NCBI GenBank assembly: GCA_902385255.1
Contig: CABMEV010000001.1
Coordinates: 1 to 50,495, forward strand
DNA: 50,495 nt
Source: Candidatus Tiddalikarchaeum anstoanum
Lineage (GTDB): Archaea > Nanobdellota > Nanobdellia > Tiddalikarchaeales > Tiddalikarchaeaceae
Direction: 5' to 3'
Shown: piece by piece, positions 13,487 to 37,489 of the stretch
Layout of the letters: every line of letters starts with the position of its first letter
Position numbering within the stretch: the first letter of the stretch is position 1
Notes under the pieces: model-generated
Told to the model about the DNA's origin: nothing
Seen by the model: the letters and a program-made list of their open reading frames with translations, nothing else
Database searches by the model: none
Program-made: the position numbers and the translations under genes

Positions 13487-14533
13487 ATGGTTGACGACTC
13501 TAAAAAAGATGAAAGCAAATCGAAAGATGAAATTAAATCATCAGATGAGCGTAAAAAAACTATAAAAACCGAAAGCGACGAAGTTGTTTCTGAAATTAAA
13601 GTTTTGGAAGACTTGCCGGGCGTCGGTGAAAAAACAGCTGAAAAGCTTCGCGAAGCAGGATTCTCAGATATAATGAGCATAGCGGTAATGCCAGCCGGAC
13701 TATTATGTGAAGTTACAGAGATGACTGAAAGTGCAGCGCAGAAAGTAATAGGCGGAGCAAGAGCAGCTTTAAAAATGGGATTCATGAGCGGTAACACGCT
13801 ATTAGACAAGAGAAATGACGTTGGCAGGATAAAATTCCAAAGCCAAGAACTAAACACATTATTCGGAGGAGGCATAGAAACCCAGGCTATATCAGAATGC
13901 TTTGGACAATTTGGCAGCGGAAAAACACAAATAGCTCTCCAACTAGCAGTTAATGTTCAATTGCCTAAAAAAGACGGAGGATTAAACGGCTACGCAGTAA
14001 TTATAGACACTGAAAATACATTTCGTCCTGAACGTATAGTACAGATGGCAGAAGCGTTAAAACTTGACCCTAAAAAAACATTGGACAAAATCAAGGTAGC
14101 ACGTGCATACTCATCAGACCATCAGATGTTATTAGTTGACAAGATAAGCGAGTTAATCGAGAAAGAGAAAATACCAGTAAAACTCGTAGTTGTCGACAGC
14201 TTAATGGGATTATTCAGATCAGAATTCGCAGGAAGAGGAACCTTGGCAACAAGGCAGCAGAAACTCAACCGCCACTTGCATGACCTGCAAAGATTAGCTG
14301 ACAGACATAACTTAGCTATATATGTAACAAACCAAGTAATGGCTAAACCTGACATATTCTTCGGAGACCCAACACAAGCATGCGGAGGAAACGTACTCGG
14401 ACACGCATCAACTTACAGAGTATACTTAAGAAGAGGAAAAGGAGACAAGAGAGTAGCCCGAATGATAGACAGCCCATGCCTCCCTGAATCTGAATGCGTC
14501 TTTAGGGTTGGACAAGAAGGAGTCAGGGACTAA
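13487..14533 (+). CDS. radA: DNA repair and recombination protein RadA
   Basis: The archaeal RecA/Rad51 recombinase forms filaments on single-stranded DNA and drives strand exchange. The 348-residue protein has an acidic/Lys-rich disordered N-terminus (residues 1-38), a helix-hairpin-helix [17 protein letters not shown] (near 46-62), Walker [15 protein letters not shown] (near 145-158, usually GEFGSGKTQ), Walker [12 protein letters not shown] (near 231) and the conserved [18 protein letters not shown] and [10 protein letters not shown] segments. The length is slightly above the usual 320-330 because of the N-terminal extension. A TATA-like box lies about 28 bases upstream. The gene is alone on its strand segment. 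Confidence 0.97.
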
Positions 14534-17133: not shown

Positions 17134-17580
17134 CTACAAAAAATCTTTCAATTTTTTGCAAGGATTTAACGATTCAAACTCCTTATCCAAGGTTTTAACA
17201 CTCCTAAGATACTTCGGTATATACTTATGAAAAAGTCTTGTATTCTTCCTCTCTTTAACATACTGCGAGTCGTAAAAAGTATTCCATAACTCTGAATTAT
17301 CAACCTCTAAACTTTTAGCCAAATCATTATCAGGAAGCAATGATTCATATTTCCTAATTACGTTTTCAACTTTGTCATTATACACGCTTAAAGGCTCGCC
17401 TTTCCTGGTTAAATAAGTCCTGCCTAAGTGTTCAATCATTATGTAAAAGTCCGGGAACCTTTCGGAAAAAAAAGTTATTATATGAGGAGTAAACTCTTCC
17501 TCAATCCGAGTCCATAATATTCCTTTACTTGAGATGTTAAACCTGGCAAACTGTATGCTCTTATAATATTGGTGAATCAT
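17134..17580 (-). CDS. DUF4130 putative DNA repair partner protein
   Basis: The 148-residue protein matches the DUF4130/TIGR03915 family, which is found next to a radical SAM protein and is predicted to act in DNA metabolism. The best marks are ELWNTFYDSQYVKERKNTRLFHKYIPKYLRSV (residues 97-128; family form KERxNxxLxxxxMPxRYWKYL) and FFSERFPDFYIMIEHLGRTYL. It is shorter than many members, which carry a longer N-terminal part. It overlaps the radical SAM gene by four bases (ATGA), so the two are translationally coupled. Biochemical activity is not established. Confidence 0.85.
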   Translation of the reverse strand: MIHQYYKSIQFARFNISSKGILWTRIEEEFTPHIITFFSERFPDFYIMIEHLGRTYLTRKGEPLSVYNDKVENVIRKYESLLPDNDLAKSLEVDNSELWNTFYDSQYVKERKNTRLFHKYIPKYLRSVKTLDKEFESLNPCKKLKDFL

Positions 17581-18698
17581 GAAAAGTCACCTATCCTTCT
17601 CTGCACTGCACCATTAATATCCAAGTAAGGAAGCGCCCGTTTAACAACGACGCCTAAGCTTTTTAGCTGTGCTAGTTTGGTTATGTTTTTCATAATTCTG
17701 TAATCCGTTATTCTTTTAACACTGACTGGGCCTATGCCTGGGATTTTAAGCAGTTCTTCGCATGATGCAGTGTTGGGATTAAGGGGATATTTTAACAGTT
17801 TATCAGCCAGGAATATCTTAGGGTCGCCTTCAGGCAAGTTTTTATCATCGGAAAATATTAGTTTAATATTGTGAAATTTCACGCCGTACTTTCTCATTAA
17901 GAAATCAACCTGGTATAATCTATGCTCGCGCTCAAGCGGAGTCTTTGGAACATGCTCTAACGGCGTTTTTGGAACTGGCAGGAAAGCGCTGAAATAAGCA
18001 CGTCTCAAGTTCATATTCTCATACATCCAATTAGTCCTGTTTAATAATTCATAGTCTGATTCGCCTGCGCATCCAACTACGAATTGAGTGGTAGTGCCTG
18101 AAGGAACGTTCTGTTCGCGCATAATCCTGAACGTCCGTAATAAGTCTAACTTGTACTCTTTGACGCTGCTTAGTTCAGACATTCGCGAAGAATTCGGAGT
18201 TTCAAGGTTCAGGCTTATCCTGTCGCTCAAGCTCGCCGCCTGCTCTATCAAATTCCTGCTTGTTCCGGGAAGAATTTTTAAGTGCACGTAGCCGTTGAAC
18301 GAGTACTTATTCCGCAATAATTCCACTGCAGTAATCATCTTCTGCATTGTGTAATCGCTGTCTTTCACGATACCGCTTGACAGGAAGAATCCTTCAACGT
18401 AATTCTGCATGTATAACTGCATGAATGACTTGGCTAACTCTTCAGGCTCGAAGCTTGTTATATTCTTGTTGCAGTTAGTGCTGTTACCGCAGTACTTGCA
18501 GTCATGGTTGCAGGAATTAGTGTATAATACTTTAAAGAGAGTTACGCACCTCCCATCCGGAGTGAAACTTTTGCATATTCCAGGAGCTATAGTCTTCCCT
18601 AAGTTTCCAAAACTTTTACTCCTATTGCTTGCACTGCTCGCGCACAAATCGTACTTTCCAGCATCGCCTAATATTTTAACCTTCTCTAAAGTATTCAC
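17577..18698 (-). CDS. Radical SAM protein, putative DNA modification/repair type
   Basis: The 373-residue protein belongs to the TIGR03916-like radical SAM family. The cluster motif is CNHDCKYCGNSTNC (about residues 63-76; CxxxCxxC for the 4Fe-4S/SAM site). Conserved stretches include FLSSGIVKDSDYTMQKM, ISLNLETPNSSRM, GCAGESDYELL and a C-terminal helix-hairpin-helix (LLKIPGIGPVSVKRITDYR, near residue 312), which supports DNA binding. An insertion repeats PKTPLEHV/PKTPLERE (near residue 232). It is paired with the downstream DUF4130 gene. The reaction is unknown; a DNA repair or base modification role is a family-level prediction. A degraded fragment of this gene's sequence occurs at 22085-22136. 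Confidence 0.93.
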   Translation of the reverse strand: MNTLEKVKILGDAGKYDLCASSASNRSKSFGNLGKTIAPGICKSFTPDGRCVTLFKVLYTNSCNHDCKYCGNSTNCNKNITSFEPEELAKSFMQLYMQNYVEGFFLSSGIVKDSDYTMQKMITAVELLRNKYSFNGYVHLKILPGTSRNLIEQAASLSDRISLNLETPNSSRMSELSSVKEYKLDLLRTFRIMREQNVPSGTTTQFVVGCAGESDYELLNRTNWMYENMNLRRAYFSAFLPVPKTPLEHVPKTPLEREHRLYQVDFLMRKYGVKFHNIKLIFSDDKNLPEGDPKIFLADKLLKYPLNPNTASCEELLKIPGIGPVSVKRITDYRIMKNITKLAQLKSLGVVVKRALPYLDINGAVQRRIGDFS

Positions 18699-33024: not shown

Positions 33025-33552
33025 ATGGAATTTAACAGGTTGATTGATGATAGGCATAGTGTGAGGGTTTTCCTGCCTAAGAAAGTGCCAAGGCAGGCGT
33101 TTCACAGGATATTAAAGGCATGCCAGCGTGCGCCATCCGCCGGAAACTTACAATCATATGAGTTGGTGGTCATTACTGATGAGAAAAAGAAAAAAGAGCT
33201 GTGCAATGCCGCATACGGTCAGGAGTGCATCATTGAAGCGCCGATAGTATTAGTATTCCTGGCGGACACTAAAAAGTCAGGCCACGTTTACGGCGAGAGG
33301 GGCAAAGAATTATATGCACTGCAGGATGCGACTATTGCCTGCGCTTACAGCCAGTTAATGGCGACAAATGTTGGAGTAGCATCCGTATGGATTGGAGCTT
33401 TTGACGAGGAAATGGTGAAAAATTTAGTTAACACCAAAGAATATAGACCAATAGCGATACTTCCAATAGGCTACCCTGGCGAGAAGATTATCACAACTCC
33501 AAGACGCGAACTGGAACGATTCGTACATGATGAAAGGTTTGAATACAAATGA
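33025..33552 (+). CDS. Nitroreductase-family FMN oxidoreductase
   Basis: A 175-residue protein with the nitroreductase pattern: DDRHSVRVFLPKKVP at the N-terminus, CQRAPSAGNLQSYELVVI (near residue 33), ATNVGVASVWIGAFDEEMV (near residue 111) and AILPIGYPGEKI (near residue 142). The family binds FMN and reduces nitro, quinone or other substrates with NAD(P)H. Length is normal for the short members. It overlaps the DNA ligase gene by four bases (ATGA), so it is the first gene of the repair operon; the link to DNA repair is unexplained. A TATA-like cttttaataaa lies about 28 bases upstream. Confidence 0.92.
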   Translation: MEFNRLIDDRHSVRVFLPKKVPRQAFHRILKACQRAPSAGNLQSYELVVITDEKKKKELCNAAYGQECIIEAPIVLVFLADTKKSGHVYGERGKELYALQDATIACAYSQLMATNVGVASVWIGAFDEEMVKNLVNTKEYRPIAILPIGYPGEKIITTPRRELERFVHDERFEYK

Positions 33553-34475
33553 AATTATACGAGCCAATGCTTGCACAGCTTGGTGTTAAAGAAGACTTAA
33601 CTAAAGAAGGCTTCATTTACGAACCCAAGCTTGACGGAACCAGGGCAGTATGTTATTTTAACGACAAGAAAATCAAACTAATTAACAGAAGAGACAGGGA
33701 TATAACATATAGGTATCCTGAATTAATCTTTGATAAAAACTTATCTGCTAAAAGCTGCGTTCTTGACGGCGAACTCGTAGTATTTAATGAGAAAGGAAAT
33801 CCCGACTTTCATTTATTGCAGACTAGAGAGCAGGTTGACAAAAAAGACTTAATTGAATCAAGAAGCAAAACTCGTCCTGCAACTTACGTAGTTTTTGATA
33901 TAATAGAAAAAGACGGCAAATTATTGGTTAATCTCCCTTTGGTAGAGAGAAAGAGAATCTTAAATGATACAGTAAAAGACGGCGCGTACATACGGAAGAT
34001 AGTTTACACAAAAGAAGGTGTTAAATTATGGAAGGAAGTGACTAAGAGAAAACTGGAAGGTGTAATGGCTAAAATTGAAACCAGTAAATACTCAGTTGGC
34101 GTCAGGGCAGATACGTGGATTAAAATCAAATTTTTGAAAACAATAGATGCAATAATTGTCGGTTATACAAGCGAGAAGAGGGTAATATCCGCGCTTGTTA
34201 TTGCAGCTTACGAAAATGACAAGTTAAGATATATTGGGCGAGTAGGCACAGGATTTACAGAATCATTCTTAAAAAGCCTCAGAACAGAATTGGACAAGTT
34301 AATCATCAAAAATCCGCCTGTAACATACTCAGGCAATAAAAACATAGTATGGGTTAAGCCTGAATTAATATGCGAAGTTAGGTACTTGGAATTATCCAAA
34401 GATAAGATTATGCGTGCGCCTGCTTTTCTCAGGATGAGAACTGACAAGAAATTAAAAGAGTGCACGCTACCATAA
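33549..34475 (+). CDS. ATP-dependent DNA ligase, LigD-type ligase domain
   Basis: A 308-residue ligase with motif I YEPKLDGTR (adenylated Lys27), motif III DGELVVF, VVFDIIE (motif IIIa), motif IV LEGVMAK and motif V WIKIK, followed by a C-terminal OB domain (IIVGYTSEKR, GRVGTGF). The length matches the stand-alone ligase core of the LigD family, without polymerase or phosphoesterase domains. It is flanked by a nitroreductase gene (overlap) and a Ku gene, so a role in end joining is well supported. Seals nicks and breaks using ATP. Confidence 0.93.
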   Translation: MKLYEPMLAQLGVKEDLTKEGFIYEPKLDGTRAVCYFNDKKIKLINRRDRDITYRYPELIFDKNLSAKSCVLDGELVVFNEKGNPDFHLLQTREQVDKKDLIESRSKTRPATYVVFDIIEKDGKLLVNLPLVERKRILNDTVKDGAYIRKIVYTKEGVKLWKEVTKRKLEGVMAKIETSKYSVGVRADTWIKIKFLKTIDAIIVGYTSEKRVISALVIAAYENDKLRYIGRVGTGFTESFLKSLRTELDKLIIKNPPVTYSGNKNIVWVKPELICEVRYLELSKDKIMRAPAFLRMRTDKKLKECTLP

Positions 34476-34510
34476 CTAATTTAAGCAGTTAACACGTCTA
34501 ATATATTTTA

Positions 34511-35263
34511 ATGAAATCAGTTTGGAATGGAGCTTTAACATTCGGATTGGTTAATATACCTATAAAACTGTACTCTGCAGTGAAAAGCCAGGCTTTAGGT
34601 TTTACTATACTTCATAATTCATGCCATACTCCTCTTCATTATAAGCGCTGGTGCGAAAAAGACAATGTTGAAGTACCTTGGACTGACGTTGTTAAAGGAC
34701 TGGAGATTAAGAAAGGTGAATATTACGTGTTCACTAAGGAAGATTTTGAAAAGATAAGGCCTGAGAAGACAAATAATATTGAAATTTTCGAGTTCGTCGA
34801 CTCGGACCAGATTGACCCCATATATTTTGAAAAGCATTATTTTGTCGTGCCTGATGTAAGGAAGGAAAAAGCATACTTTTTATTCAAGGAAGTTCTCCAG
34901 TCAACGAATAAAATAGCAATAGGAAGATTCGTGATGAGGGAGAGAGAATACATCTGCTCTGTGGAATCTTATAAAAATGGATTATTATTAAACACTTTAA
35001 ATTACGAGTACGAAATTGCAGACATAAAATCAATAAAAGAACTTGATGAGTCTCCGAAAATAGAAATTGAAGAGTTAAAACTAGCTAAAGCATTGATAGA
35101 GAAATTATACTCTAAAGACTTGGAGATGAATAAGTACAGGGACAGTTTTACTGAACAGCTTAAAAAGATGCTAAAGAAGAAAGAAGAGATAATAATTGAG
35201 CCCTTAAAGGCGAAAAAACCAGGAAAGAACCTTTTGGATGCATTGAAAGAGAGCCTGAAATAA
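34511..35263 (+). CDS. ku: Ku protein (non-homologous end joining)
   Basis: A 250-residue homologue of prokaryotic Ku, which forms a ring on DNA ends and recruits the ligase. The Ku core is clear: VWNGALTFGLVNIPIKLYSAV (residues 3-22, with one gap of the usual GxxxxGLVxxPVKLY), CHTPLHYKRWCEKDN-VEVPW (dash added), GEYYVFTKEDFEKI, SDQIDPIYFEKHYFVVPD and LLLNTLNYEYEI. The C-terminus is Lys-rich and basic (KKMLKKKEEIIIEPLKAKK), as in bacterial Ku tails that bind DNA or the ligase. It lies 35 bases after the ligase gene. Confidence 0.95.
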   Translation: MKSVWNGALTFGLVNIPIKLYSAVKSQALGFTILHNSCHTPLHYKRWCEKDNVEVPWTDVVKGLEIKKGEYYVFTKEDFEKIRPEKTNNIEIFEFVDSDQIDPIYFEKHYFVVPDVRKEKAYFLFKEVLQSTNKIAIGRFVMREREYICSVESYKNGLLLNTLNYEYEIADIKSIKELDESPKIEIEELKLAKALIEKLYSKDLEMNKYRDSFTEQLKKMLKKKEEIIIEPLKAKKPGKNLLDALKESLK

Positions 35264-35300
35264 TTTTTTTTGTAACTATTACAACAAGGTAACACTAAGT

Positions 35301-35310
35301 CTTTAATAAC
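35301..35310 (+). promoter_or_regulatory. TATA-like box before the 452-residue unknown gene
   Basis: The element ctttaataac centres about 31 bases before ATG 35336 and supports that start over a TTG at 35330. Confidence 0.4.
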
Positions 35311-35335
35311 AGGATTAATCCTTTTTTATTTGAAT

Positions 35336-36694
35336 ATGGGATTAGGCGGAAAGACTGGAACTGGAAAAACATCCAAGCGTTCCAAGAAAGTTATGAGCGA
35401 AGAGGCAAAACTAGCACAGTGGAATAAATTATACTGCATCAAAACTGACCCTAATGAGATAAACAAGGAGAAGGGTGATTTTTACGAATTATACACATTA
35501 TACTTAATACAACCTTATTTGAACAATGTCCAAAGGAGGAACTTGTACAGGTATGTCATTAATAGTTATGCGAGAACCGCAGAATTATACCTGAAAGATA
35601 AGGCTGTTTTTGAAAGTGATGTCTTCCTCTCATTAAGAAGAGACAGCAAATTTACGCGCTGGCTCCAAAAAATATTCAATATACATGACGAGTTCGGATT
35701 TAACGCCCAATGCAAGAAGTATAAAGTCCCCGTAAATGATGATCACGTAAGCTATGACTCGGGACAGGTTTGTTTTGCGAAAGTATTAGGGAATAATATA
35801 ATAAAAAATACTGTTCCAAAGCTTGGTAAAGATGAGGAAATCCTGGAGCAGGTTGGGGAATTATACTTAACATACAACGTGCCAATCTTTCAAAACTTAA
35901 GCAATTCACTGGATGGAGTACTAATACAGCTTAAGAATTCATACCTTAATACAGGGCAAATAGTTGAAAATTTCAACAATGAAGAATACTCGTTTAACAT
36001 CTCGCAAATAGTTGATTACACAGTTGACATAGAACAAAGACGGACTTTATCAAGAAAAGAGCGTAAGATGGAGCAGAAAAAACTAATCAAAGAGAAAAAG
36101 AAGCCCAAAGAGAATGAAGCAGTGGAAAATAAAGAAGAAGTTAAAATAGTTAAGTATCACATCTTAAAAGTTAAAACTGAAAAAGAAAAGAGTTTAGACG
36201 GCTCCGCAGAAATATATTATGCCGAGAGTGCAGAGAATAACTTCAAAATATTGGAGCAGAAATATAGGGTTAGTCTTGGCAATCTTGTTTTAGTAAGGCA
36301 GAAACATAAAGTGCTGCCTGATAAGTACTATTTTGTCAACCTGGCTGATGAGAAAAATTATGATACTATAAAAGAAACCATTGAAACATTCCTTAATCCT
36401 GAAATGTTCGGCTACACTGCACCTTTCGGTCTTGAAGCCTCGGCTAAACTTTCGCTCGACCAAGTTAATGGGGTTTATTATACTGCTGAGAGTTTTAGAG
36501 ATGTTTTCAAGAAGAATAACTTCTTCAAGGAGTTCAAGAAATTTATAGACATACCTCATTATTCTGTTCTAAGAAGCTCTGAAGGAGATTTGGAGAAAGA
36601 ACTTGACAAGAAGCTTGCGCACTTGGTAAGCGACGGAAAATTGAAGAAGAAAAGCATCGTGACAGCCGTTGAAAACTTTGTCATCAAAGACTAA
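35336..36694 (+). CDS. Unrecognised 452-residue protein beside the Ku operon
   Basis: From ATG 35336 the product has 452 residues. It opens with a basic Gly/Thr/Lys stretch (MGLGGKTGTGKTSKRSKK), a mixed domain to about residue 235, a long charged Lys/Glu linker (RKERKMEQKKLIKEKKKPKE, near 245-265) and a second globular domain ending in a helical tail. No catalytic motif is seen; the N-terminal GxxxxGKT is probably not a real P-loop because no beta-strand precedes it and no Walker B follows. Position between Ku and an AP endonuclease gene suggests, but does not show, a repair link. Confidence 0.75.
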   Translation: MGLGGKTGTGKTSKRSKKVMSEEAKLAQWNKLYCIKTDPNEINKEKGDFYELYTLYLIQPYLNNVQRRNLYRYVINSYARTAELYLKDKAVFESDVFLSLRRDSKFTRWLQKIFNIHDEFGFNAQCKKYKVPVNDDHVSYDSGQVCFAKVLGNNIIKNTVPKLGKDEEILEQVGELYLTYNVPIFQNLSNSLDGVLIQLKNSYLNTGQIVENFNNEEYSFNISQIVDYTVDIEQRRTLSRKERKMEQKKLIKEKKKPKENEAVENKEEVKIVKYHILKVKTEKEKSLDGSAEIYYAESAENNFKILEQKYRVSLGNLVLVRQKHKVLPDKYYFVNLADEKNYDTIKETIETFLNPEMFGYTAPFGLEASAKLSLDQVNGVYYTAESFRDVFKKNNFFKEFKKFIDIPHYSVLRSSEGDLEKELDKKLAHLVSDGKLKKKSIVTAVENFVIKD

Positions 36695-36733
36695 AGAGAT
36701 AAAAATACGAGTAAAATAATATTTATCTTAAAA

Positions 36734-37489
36734 ATGAATGTAATTTCATGGAATGTCAATGGCATAAGGTCTGCATTTAATAAAGGATTATTAACATGGA
36801 TTAACAGGGAGTCGCCTGACATATTATGCCTGCAGGAGATTAAATCAGGCTTTAAAGAAGTACCAGATGAACTAAAATATTTAACGAATTATACCAGTTA
36901 CATTTTTCCTTCAGCGAGAAAAGGTTACAGCGGGACAGCTGTATTCTCCAAATTAAGGCCCGAAAGAGTAACTTATGGCATAGGCAGGAAAGAGTTCGAC
37001 TCTGAAGGCAGGACTATAATATTAGAATACAAGGATTTTTTCTTAATTAACTCGTACTTTCCTCATGGAAGCAGGGATAAAAGCGACCTGCCTTTCAAGA
37101 TGAGGATGTACAAATTATTTCTTGAGAAGCTGAAACTTTTTGATAAGCCTGTTATTGTATGTGGTGATTTTAACGTGGCACATGAGGAGATAGACTTGGC
37201 AAGGCCGAAAAACAATAAGAATAATACTATGTTCACAAAAGAAGAGAGAAGTATGGTAACTAGTATTATCGAAGCTGGGTTTATTGACACGTTCAGGTAC
37301 ATTAATAAAGAAAAAATAGAATACACTTGGTGGCCGTACAGAAATAATCTTAGAAGCCGAAACGTAGGATGGAGGATAGATTACATATTTATCTCCAAAC
37401 AATTGGCAAATAAGTTGCGAAGCGCAGGCATACAAACTCTTGTAAAAGGCTCAGACCACTGTCCTATAAGTGTAAATATAATAATTTAA
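36734..37489 (+). CDS. xth: Exonuclease III-type AP endonuclease
   Basis: A 251-residue enzyme of the ExoIII/APE1 family, which cuts DNA 5' of abasic sites and trims 3' blocks in base excision repair. Motifs are ISWNVNGIRSAF (N-terminal Asn), LCLQEIKSG (catalytic Glu, near residue 34), INSYFPHGSRD (Tyr), VVCGDFNVAHEEIDLA form (VIVCGDFNVAH, near residue 141), TWWPYR...GWRIDYIFIS (near 200) and the terminal GSDHCPISV (catalytic Asp-His). The length is normal. The stop overlaps the convergent helicase gene's 3' end by four bases. Confidence 0.97.
   Translation: MNVISWNVNGIRSAFNKGLLTWINRESPDILCLQEIKSGFKEVPDELKYLTNYTSYIFPSARKGYSGTAVFSKLRPERVTYGIGRKEFDSEGRTIILEYKDFFLINSYFPHGSRDKSDLPFKMRMYKLFLEKLKLFDKPVIVCGDFNVAHEEIDLARPKNNKNNTMFTKEERSMVTSIIEAGFIDTFRYINKEKIEYTWWPYRNNLRSRNVGWRIDYIFISKQLANKLRSAGIQTLVKGSDHCPISVNIII

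Follow-up and report, generated by a model that had tools for sequence, protein, structure and literature searches.

A Ku–ligase gene pair without a detected LigD polymerase in a small-genome archaeal lineage

Non-homologous end joining (NHEJ) is rare in archaea, and Methanocella alone is named with a complete set of its components (PMC8708640). Ku together with a ligase has been counted in 10 of 243 archaea (PMC7719229), and a wide lack of DNA repair genes characterizes DPANN genomes (PMC8407392). No paper on NHEJ in DPANN was found in a literature search that covered few subscription papers, which is not a proof of novelty. A run of five genes that includes Ku and a LigD-type ligase raises the question of whether an archaeal end-joining system is encoded here and which of the five genes take part in it. 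The run lies in the window, which is the whole stretch of 50,495 nucleotides that was analyzed, and it had been proposed to form one end-joining module.

The host of the locus is probably a DPANN archaeon, as its small genome (1.16 Mb in 13 contigs) and the fused PriS-PriL primase of a relative from the same family fit this placement. The window is archaeal, with a RadA gene at 13487-14533 and an SRP54 gene on the same contig. On the strength of these two genes, the normal GC content of the Ku and ligase genes, and a closest Ku from within the class, contamination was rejected as the origin of Ku. The window also encodes a radical-SAM protein (17577-18698; TIGR03916, 356.8 bits against a cut-off of 343.5). 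It is a putative enzyme of DNA modification or repair, and its family is linked to a UDG-like partner.

Gene content of the locus

The original prediction placed the five genes in one direction, and both their coordinates and the identities given to four of them were confirmed. The ligase, Ku, the ExoIII/Xth-type endonuclease, and the nitroreductase exceed the curated cut-offs of Pfam and NCBIfam (Table 1), whereas the fifth protein, described as unknown, indeed matches nothing in either collection. Its length is counted from an ATG; the 454 aa given for the same gene in the open reading frame list result from an upstream TTG start. Equally, no polymerase (Pol) or phosphoesterase (PE) domain is present among the window genes examined, as had been stated.

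Table 1. Features of the Ku–ligase locus (positions in the window)
Feature	Position	Strand	Basis or remark
Nitroreductase-family (FMN) oxidoreductase, 175 aa	33025-33552	+	PF00881, 95.9 bits
Stand-alone LigD-type ATP-dependent DNA ligase (nucleotidyltransferase and OB domains), 308 aa	33549-34475	+	TIGR02779, 262.7 bits (cut-off 227.75)
Ku, prokaryotic core type, 250 aa	34511-35263	+	TIGR02772, 252.5 bits (cut-off 150)
T8 run, candidate archaeal transcription terminator	35264-35271	+	Function inferred only
452-aa protein, no family	35336-36694	+	Possible PD-(D/E)XK (Mrr-like) pattern, weak
ExoIII/Xth-type AP endonuclease, 251 aa	36734-37489	+	TIGR00633, 292 bits (cut-off 99)

The identities of Ku and of the stand-alone LigD-type ligase are beyond doubt. 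The best PDB sequence match of Ku is the B. subtilis protein (9vnq, E 1e-41), and two other prokaryotic Ku entries were matched as well. Its AlphaFold (AF2) model has a pLDDT of 90.4 and retrieves B. subtilis Ku (E 3e-17) and M. tuberculosis Ku as the best Foldseek matches, followed by human Ku70/80. The Ku homology on which the proposal hinged is thus found in the predicted structure as well. Of the four cysteines in the CxxC...CxxC bridge motif (34613-34663), all of which are present in most relatives from the class, the window Ku retains only two; its zinc site has therefore probably been lost, a point against the end-joining reading proposed below. The ligase harbors motif I (K27-LDGTR) together with motifs III, IIIa, IV, and V, and among solved structures it is closest to LigD-type ligase domains. 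The pair resembles the bacterial Ku-LigD systems (Mycobacterium, Bacillus) in the family and fold of Ku and in the homology of the ligase to the LigD ligase domain. In contrast to those systems, the window ligase consists of the ligase domain alone, without a fused Pol or PE, and the window sequences belong to an archaeal clade. The Xth protein has intact catalytic motifs and a best PDB match at E 3.5e-79.

The genes are separated by −4, 35, 72, and 39 bp, the third value being counted to the ATG. Same-strand pairs make up 39 of the 55 neighbor pairs in the window, where short gaps are normal, so that the common direction of the five genes carries little weight. The overlap between the nitroreductase and ligase genes had been regarded as unexplained; it is an ordinary 4-bp stop/start overlap, a type that occurs in seven of the 39 same-strand pairs. 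The T8 run begins one base past the Ku stop codon and argues for a transcript end at this point. In 87 other Ku loci, Ku has no nitroreductase, 452-aa protein, or Xth gene as its neighbor. A single genome has a nitroreductase gene 4.7 kb from the ligase, which was discounted because the distance is too large and the family too common. The nitroreductase gene has a GC content of 44.5%, about two SD above the gene mean of 36.6% (SD 3.8), and is probably a co-transcribed upstream gene outside of the repair machinery. All three genes look like ordinary neighbors, unproven as components.

The 452-aa protein has two distant relatives in the class (G002 and G027), neither of which is linked to Ku. 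The three sequences share 40 invariant columns, including E51, D95, Q125, and K127, and the spacing E51...D95...Q125-x-K127 resembles that of a QxK-variant PD-(D/E)XK site. One of the relatives matches Mrr_cat_2 in Pfam at a sub-threshold E of 0.14. From these sequence patterns, the chances that the protein takes on a nuclease fold appear about even. Searches of viral contigs, plasmids, and PDB sequences returned no significant match for this protein, and a single-sequence fold of the protein was discarded owing to its pLDDT of 32.

The Ku–ligase pair across the class

Of the 378 class genomes, eight encode Ku, and a sample of four genomes from the same family yielded none. The NHEJ ligase exceeds the cut-off in seven of the 378, and six of these are Ku genomes (Fisher p ~5e-11, or 3e-13 with the interrupted ligase frame of G194 included). 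The seventh, G134, is reported as 100% complete and has no Ku; it carries an Fpg-PE-Lig-Pol run (L163:8628-11684, G134:C8), and in the tree its ligase is placed with bacterial sequences. The Ku of G200 was rejected as an archaeal-type Ku and left out of the corresponding counts because it is a divergent, viral Ku-like protein whose contig carries terminase and portal genes, so that the archaeal-type set comprises seven genomes. This protein (G200:C7, L105:203-1042) matches PHROG 4873, "Ku-like DNA end binding," and stems from an archaeal virus or provirus.

Ku and ligase genes are adjacent or near each other in six other genomes (G009, G025, G051, G113, G194, and G243); in G025 they overlap by 4 bp, with the locus split over contigs C25 and C19. 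The order is Ku followed by ligase in all six and ligase followed by Ku in the window, which indicates that the order changed in the window lineage while the pair stayed together. The G243 locus (G243:C53, L102:7868-12562) harbors genes for UDG, a family-X polymerase (PolX), Ku, an MBL-fold protein of the PRK04286 type, and the NHEJ ligase in one direction. The PHP domain of this PolX is split or internally shortened, and the placement of a family-X polymerase beside Ku and ligase resembles the eukaryotic division of labor. Relatives of the MBL-fold protein, possibly an end-processing nuclease family, are encoded ~0.75 kb from the ligase in G025 (L165:1954-3021, G025:C19) and, in the window's genome, 8.5 kb from the PE gene (L009:16125-17081, G000:C3).

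In the Ku tree, the seven class sequences form one set with those of Bathyarchaeota and Nitrososphaera (SH-aLRT 99). A matching set with a support of 98 is present in the ligase tree and additionally includes four ligases whose class genomes have no detected Ku. The window pairs with G113 in both trees, and G243 is the adjacent or a nearby branch. This agreement supports a joint inheritance of Ku and ligase, with the patchy presence arising by transfer and loss. The loci used for the trees include no Methanocella, Methanobacterium, or Archaeoglobus sequences, which limits the deeper placement accordingly. The nearest named Ku proteins are those of Bathyarchaeota and Nitrososphaera (36-43% identity), and the ligase falls in the same clade; their loci (L018, L019, L020, and L025) differ from the window in that Ku has Pol or a long LigD-like fusion as its neighbor.

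The five-gene module thus holds for one part of its membership. Ku and the ligase stand as a pair by HMM, fold, and PDB matches, co-occurrence, adjacency, and congruent trees, whereas a membership of the other three genes is not supported, given the comparison of Ku loci and the position of the T8 run.

Polymerase and phosphoesterase inventory

Pol and PE might be encoded outside of the window, and genome-wide searches of the assembly recovered only the latter. LigD Pol has no match at E<=1 anywhere in the assembly, which is 94.45% complete. A stand-alone LigD-type PE of 131 aa is encoded on another contig (C3:7267-7662), unlinked to the Ku locus. It has no N-terminal extension and, in the PDB, is matched best by 5dmp, which we take to be the Methanocella PE. 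All six catalytic residues listed for the Methanocella PE (PMC4797286) are present. The genome further encodes a separate ligase of the replicative type and a full-length PolX with a PHP domain (C5:40652-42328, 459 bits), which contains the palm Asp pair (GDIDIL) and a third Asp.

LigD Pol is missing in six of the seven archaeal-type Ku genomes (completeness 87-94%). The single Ku genome that has it is G113, where a PE-Pol fusion (261 bits) lies on a different contig than Ku. Weak LigD-Pol hits of 16-24 bits in relatives were rejected, as they correspond to the fused replicative primase in the two genomes examined (G004 and G113); those of G051 and G243 are taken to be the same from their similar ORF length. 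PE occurs in 58 of the 378 genomes (2/8 with Ku, 56/370 of the others, p 0.35) and was rejected as an obligate partner of Ku. A search in which hits to PHP alone count as well finds PolX in about half of the class. Only three of the eight genomes with Ku have a full-length or polymerase-domain PolX, and an obligate partnership was dismissed as a statistical claim.

Proposed mechanism and alternatives

We consider it likely, though well short of certain, that Ku and the ligase act as a two-component archaeal NHEJ pair without a polymerase of its own, for which PolX, PE, or primase may process the ends. Gene identity, genome inventory, co-occurrence, adjacency, and tree congruence are observed; the biochemical steps and the assisting polymerase, if any, are inferred. 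As its fold and family suggest, a Ku dimer would form a ring on the ends of a double-strand break and bridge them. The LigD-type ligase, which is distinct from the replicative ligase, would then seal the bridged ends, as expected from its family. With a dedicated LigD primase-polymerase absent, the ligase would join compatible or blunt ends directly, and ends that need work would be passed to general enzymes encoded elsewhere. Candidate helpers are the canonical PolX with its PHP domain for gap filling and 3′-end trimming, the stand-alone PE for the removal of 3′-ribonucleotides or phosphates, and the replicative primase. The assignment of PE and PolX to the pathway is a guess because neither is enriched with Ku, and the G243 cluster is the best lead for a PolX helper.

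The archaeo-prokaryotic NHEJ (AP-NHEJ) of Methanocella paludicola, with its separate Ku, Lig, Pol, and PE (PMC4797286), is likewise archaeal, has a stand-alone ligase separate from Ku, and shares a PE of the same family in the genome. Here, in contrast, Pol was not found, the PE gene is located apart from Ku and shows no association with it across the class, and adjacency is restricted to the ligase and Ku genes. Bacterial NHEJ without the LigD nuclease is enriched for PolX (PMC9226535) and shares the idea that PolX supplies end processing; the LigD polymerase domain is retained in those systems, whereas none was found here. By analogy, a reduced-genome (DPANN-type) lineage might employ Ku, ligase, and a family-X polymerase in place of LigD Pol, as in the eukaryotic Ku-Pol lambda/mu-Lig4 system. 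The UDG-PolX-Ku-MBL-Lig cluster of G243 would be its clearest form, possibly joined by an Mrr-like end trimmer in the window's genome. We regard this version as unlikely, if conceivable.

Three other readings are less probable still. A full Methanocella-type set of Ku, Lig, Pol, and PE, with Pol merely absent from the draft assembly, would fit the presence of PE and the PE-Pol fusion of the tree neighbor G113. At this level of assembly completeness a Pol gene could be missed in one genome, though hardly in six together, and such a joint loss by chance is very unlikely. Many named bacterial loci, like the Bathyarchaeota locus, have Pol no more than a few kb away from Ku; the window does not. 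Overall, this reading has a slim chance. Marginally better placed, yet still improbable, is a role of the ligase and the adjoining Xth in base excision or clustered-damage repair, with Ku channeling the ligase to the resulting breaks. Repair genes do recur near the loci (Xth in the window, UDG and PolX in G243, Fpg/MutM in G134, and an EndoIII-like glycosylase ~3.7 kb away in G194), and a 5′-dRP lyase activity of B. subtilis LigD has been reported (PMC4770248). However, the neighboring gene differs at each locus, the pattern was noticed post hoc, and the T8 run separates the ligase and Ku genes from Xth.

It is similarly doubtful that all five genes form one functional operon, in which the 452-aa protein would be an end-processing nuclease and Xth a 3′-end cleaner. 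The shared strand, the short gaps, and the possible PD-(D/E)XK pattern speak for it. Against it are the prevalence of such gene pairs in the window, the T8 run after Ku, the lack of conservation of the neighbors at Ku loci, the relatives of the 452-aa protein that are unlinked to Ku, and the outlying GC content of the nitroreductase gene.

The two-component Ku–ligase pair, recurrent and co-inherited without a polymerase in a small-genome archaeal class, would represent a minimal natural form of NHEJ for reconstitution. It raises the testable question of which polymerase, if any, fills the gaps. Both protein families also gain an archaeal branch from these sequences, which can help to trace how NHEJ was transferred among archaea, bacteria, and eukaryotes.
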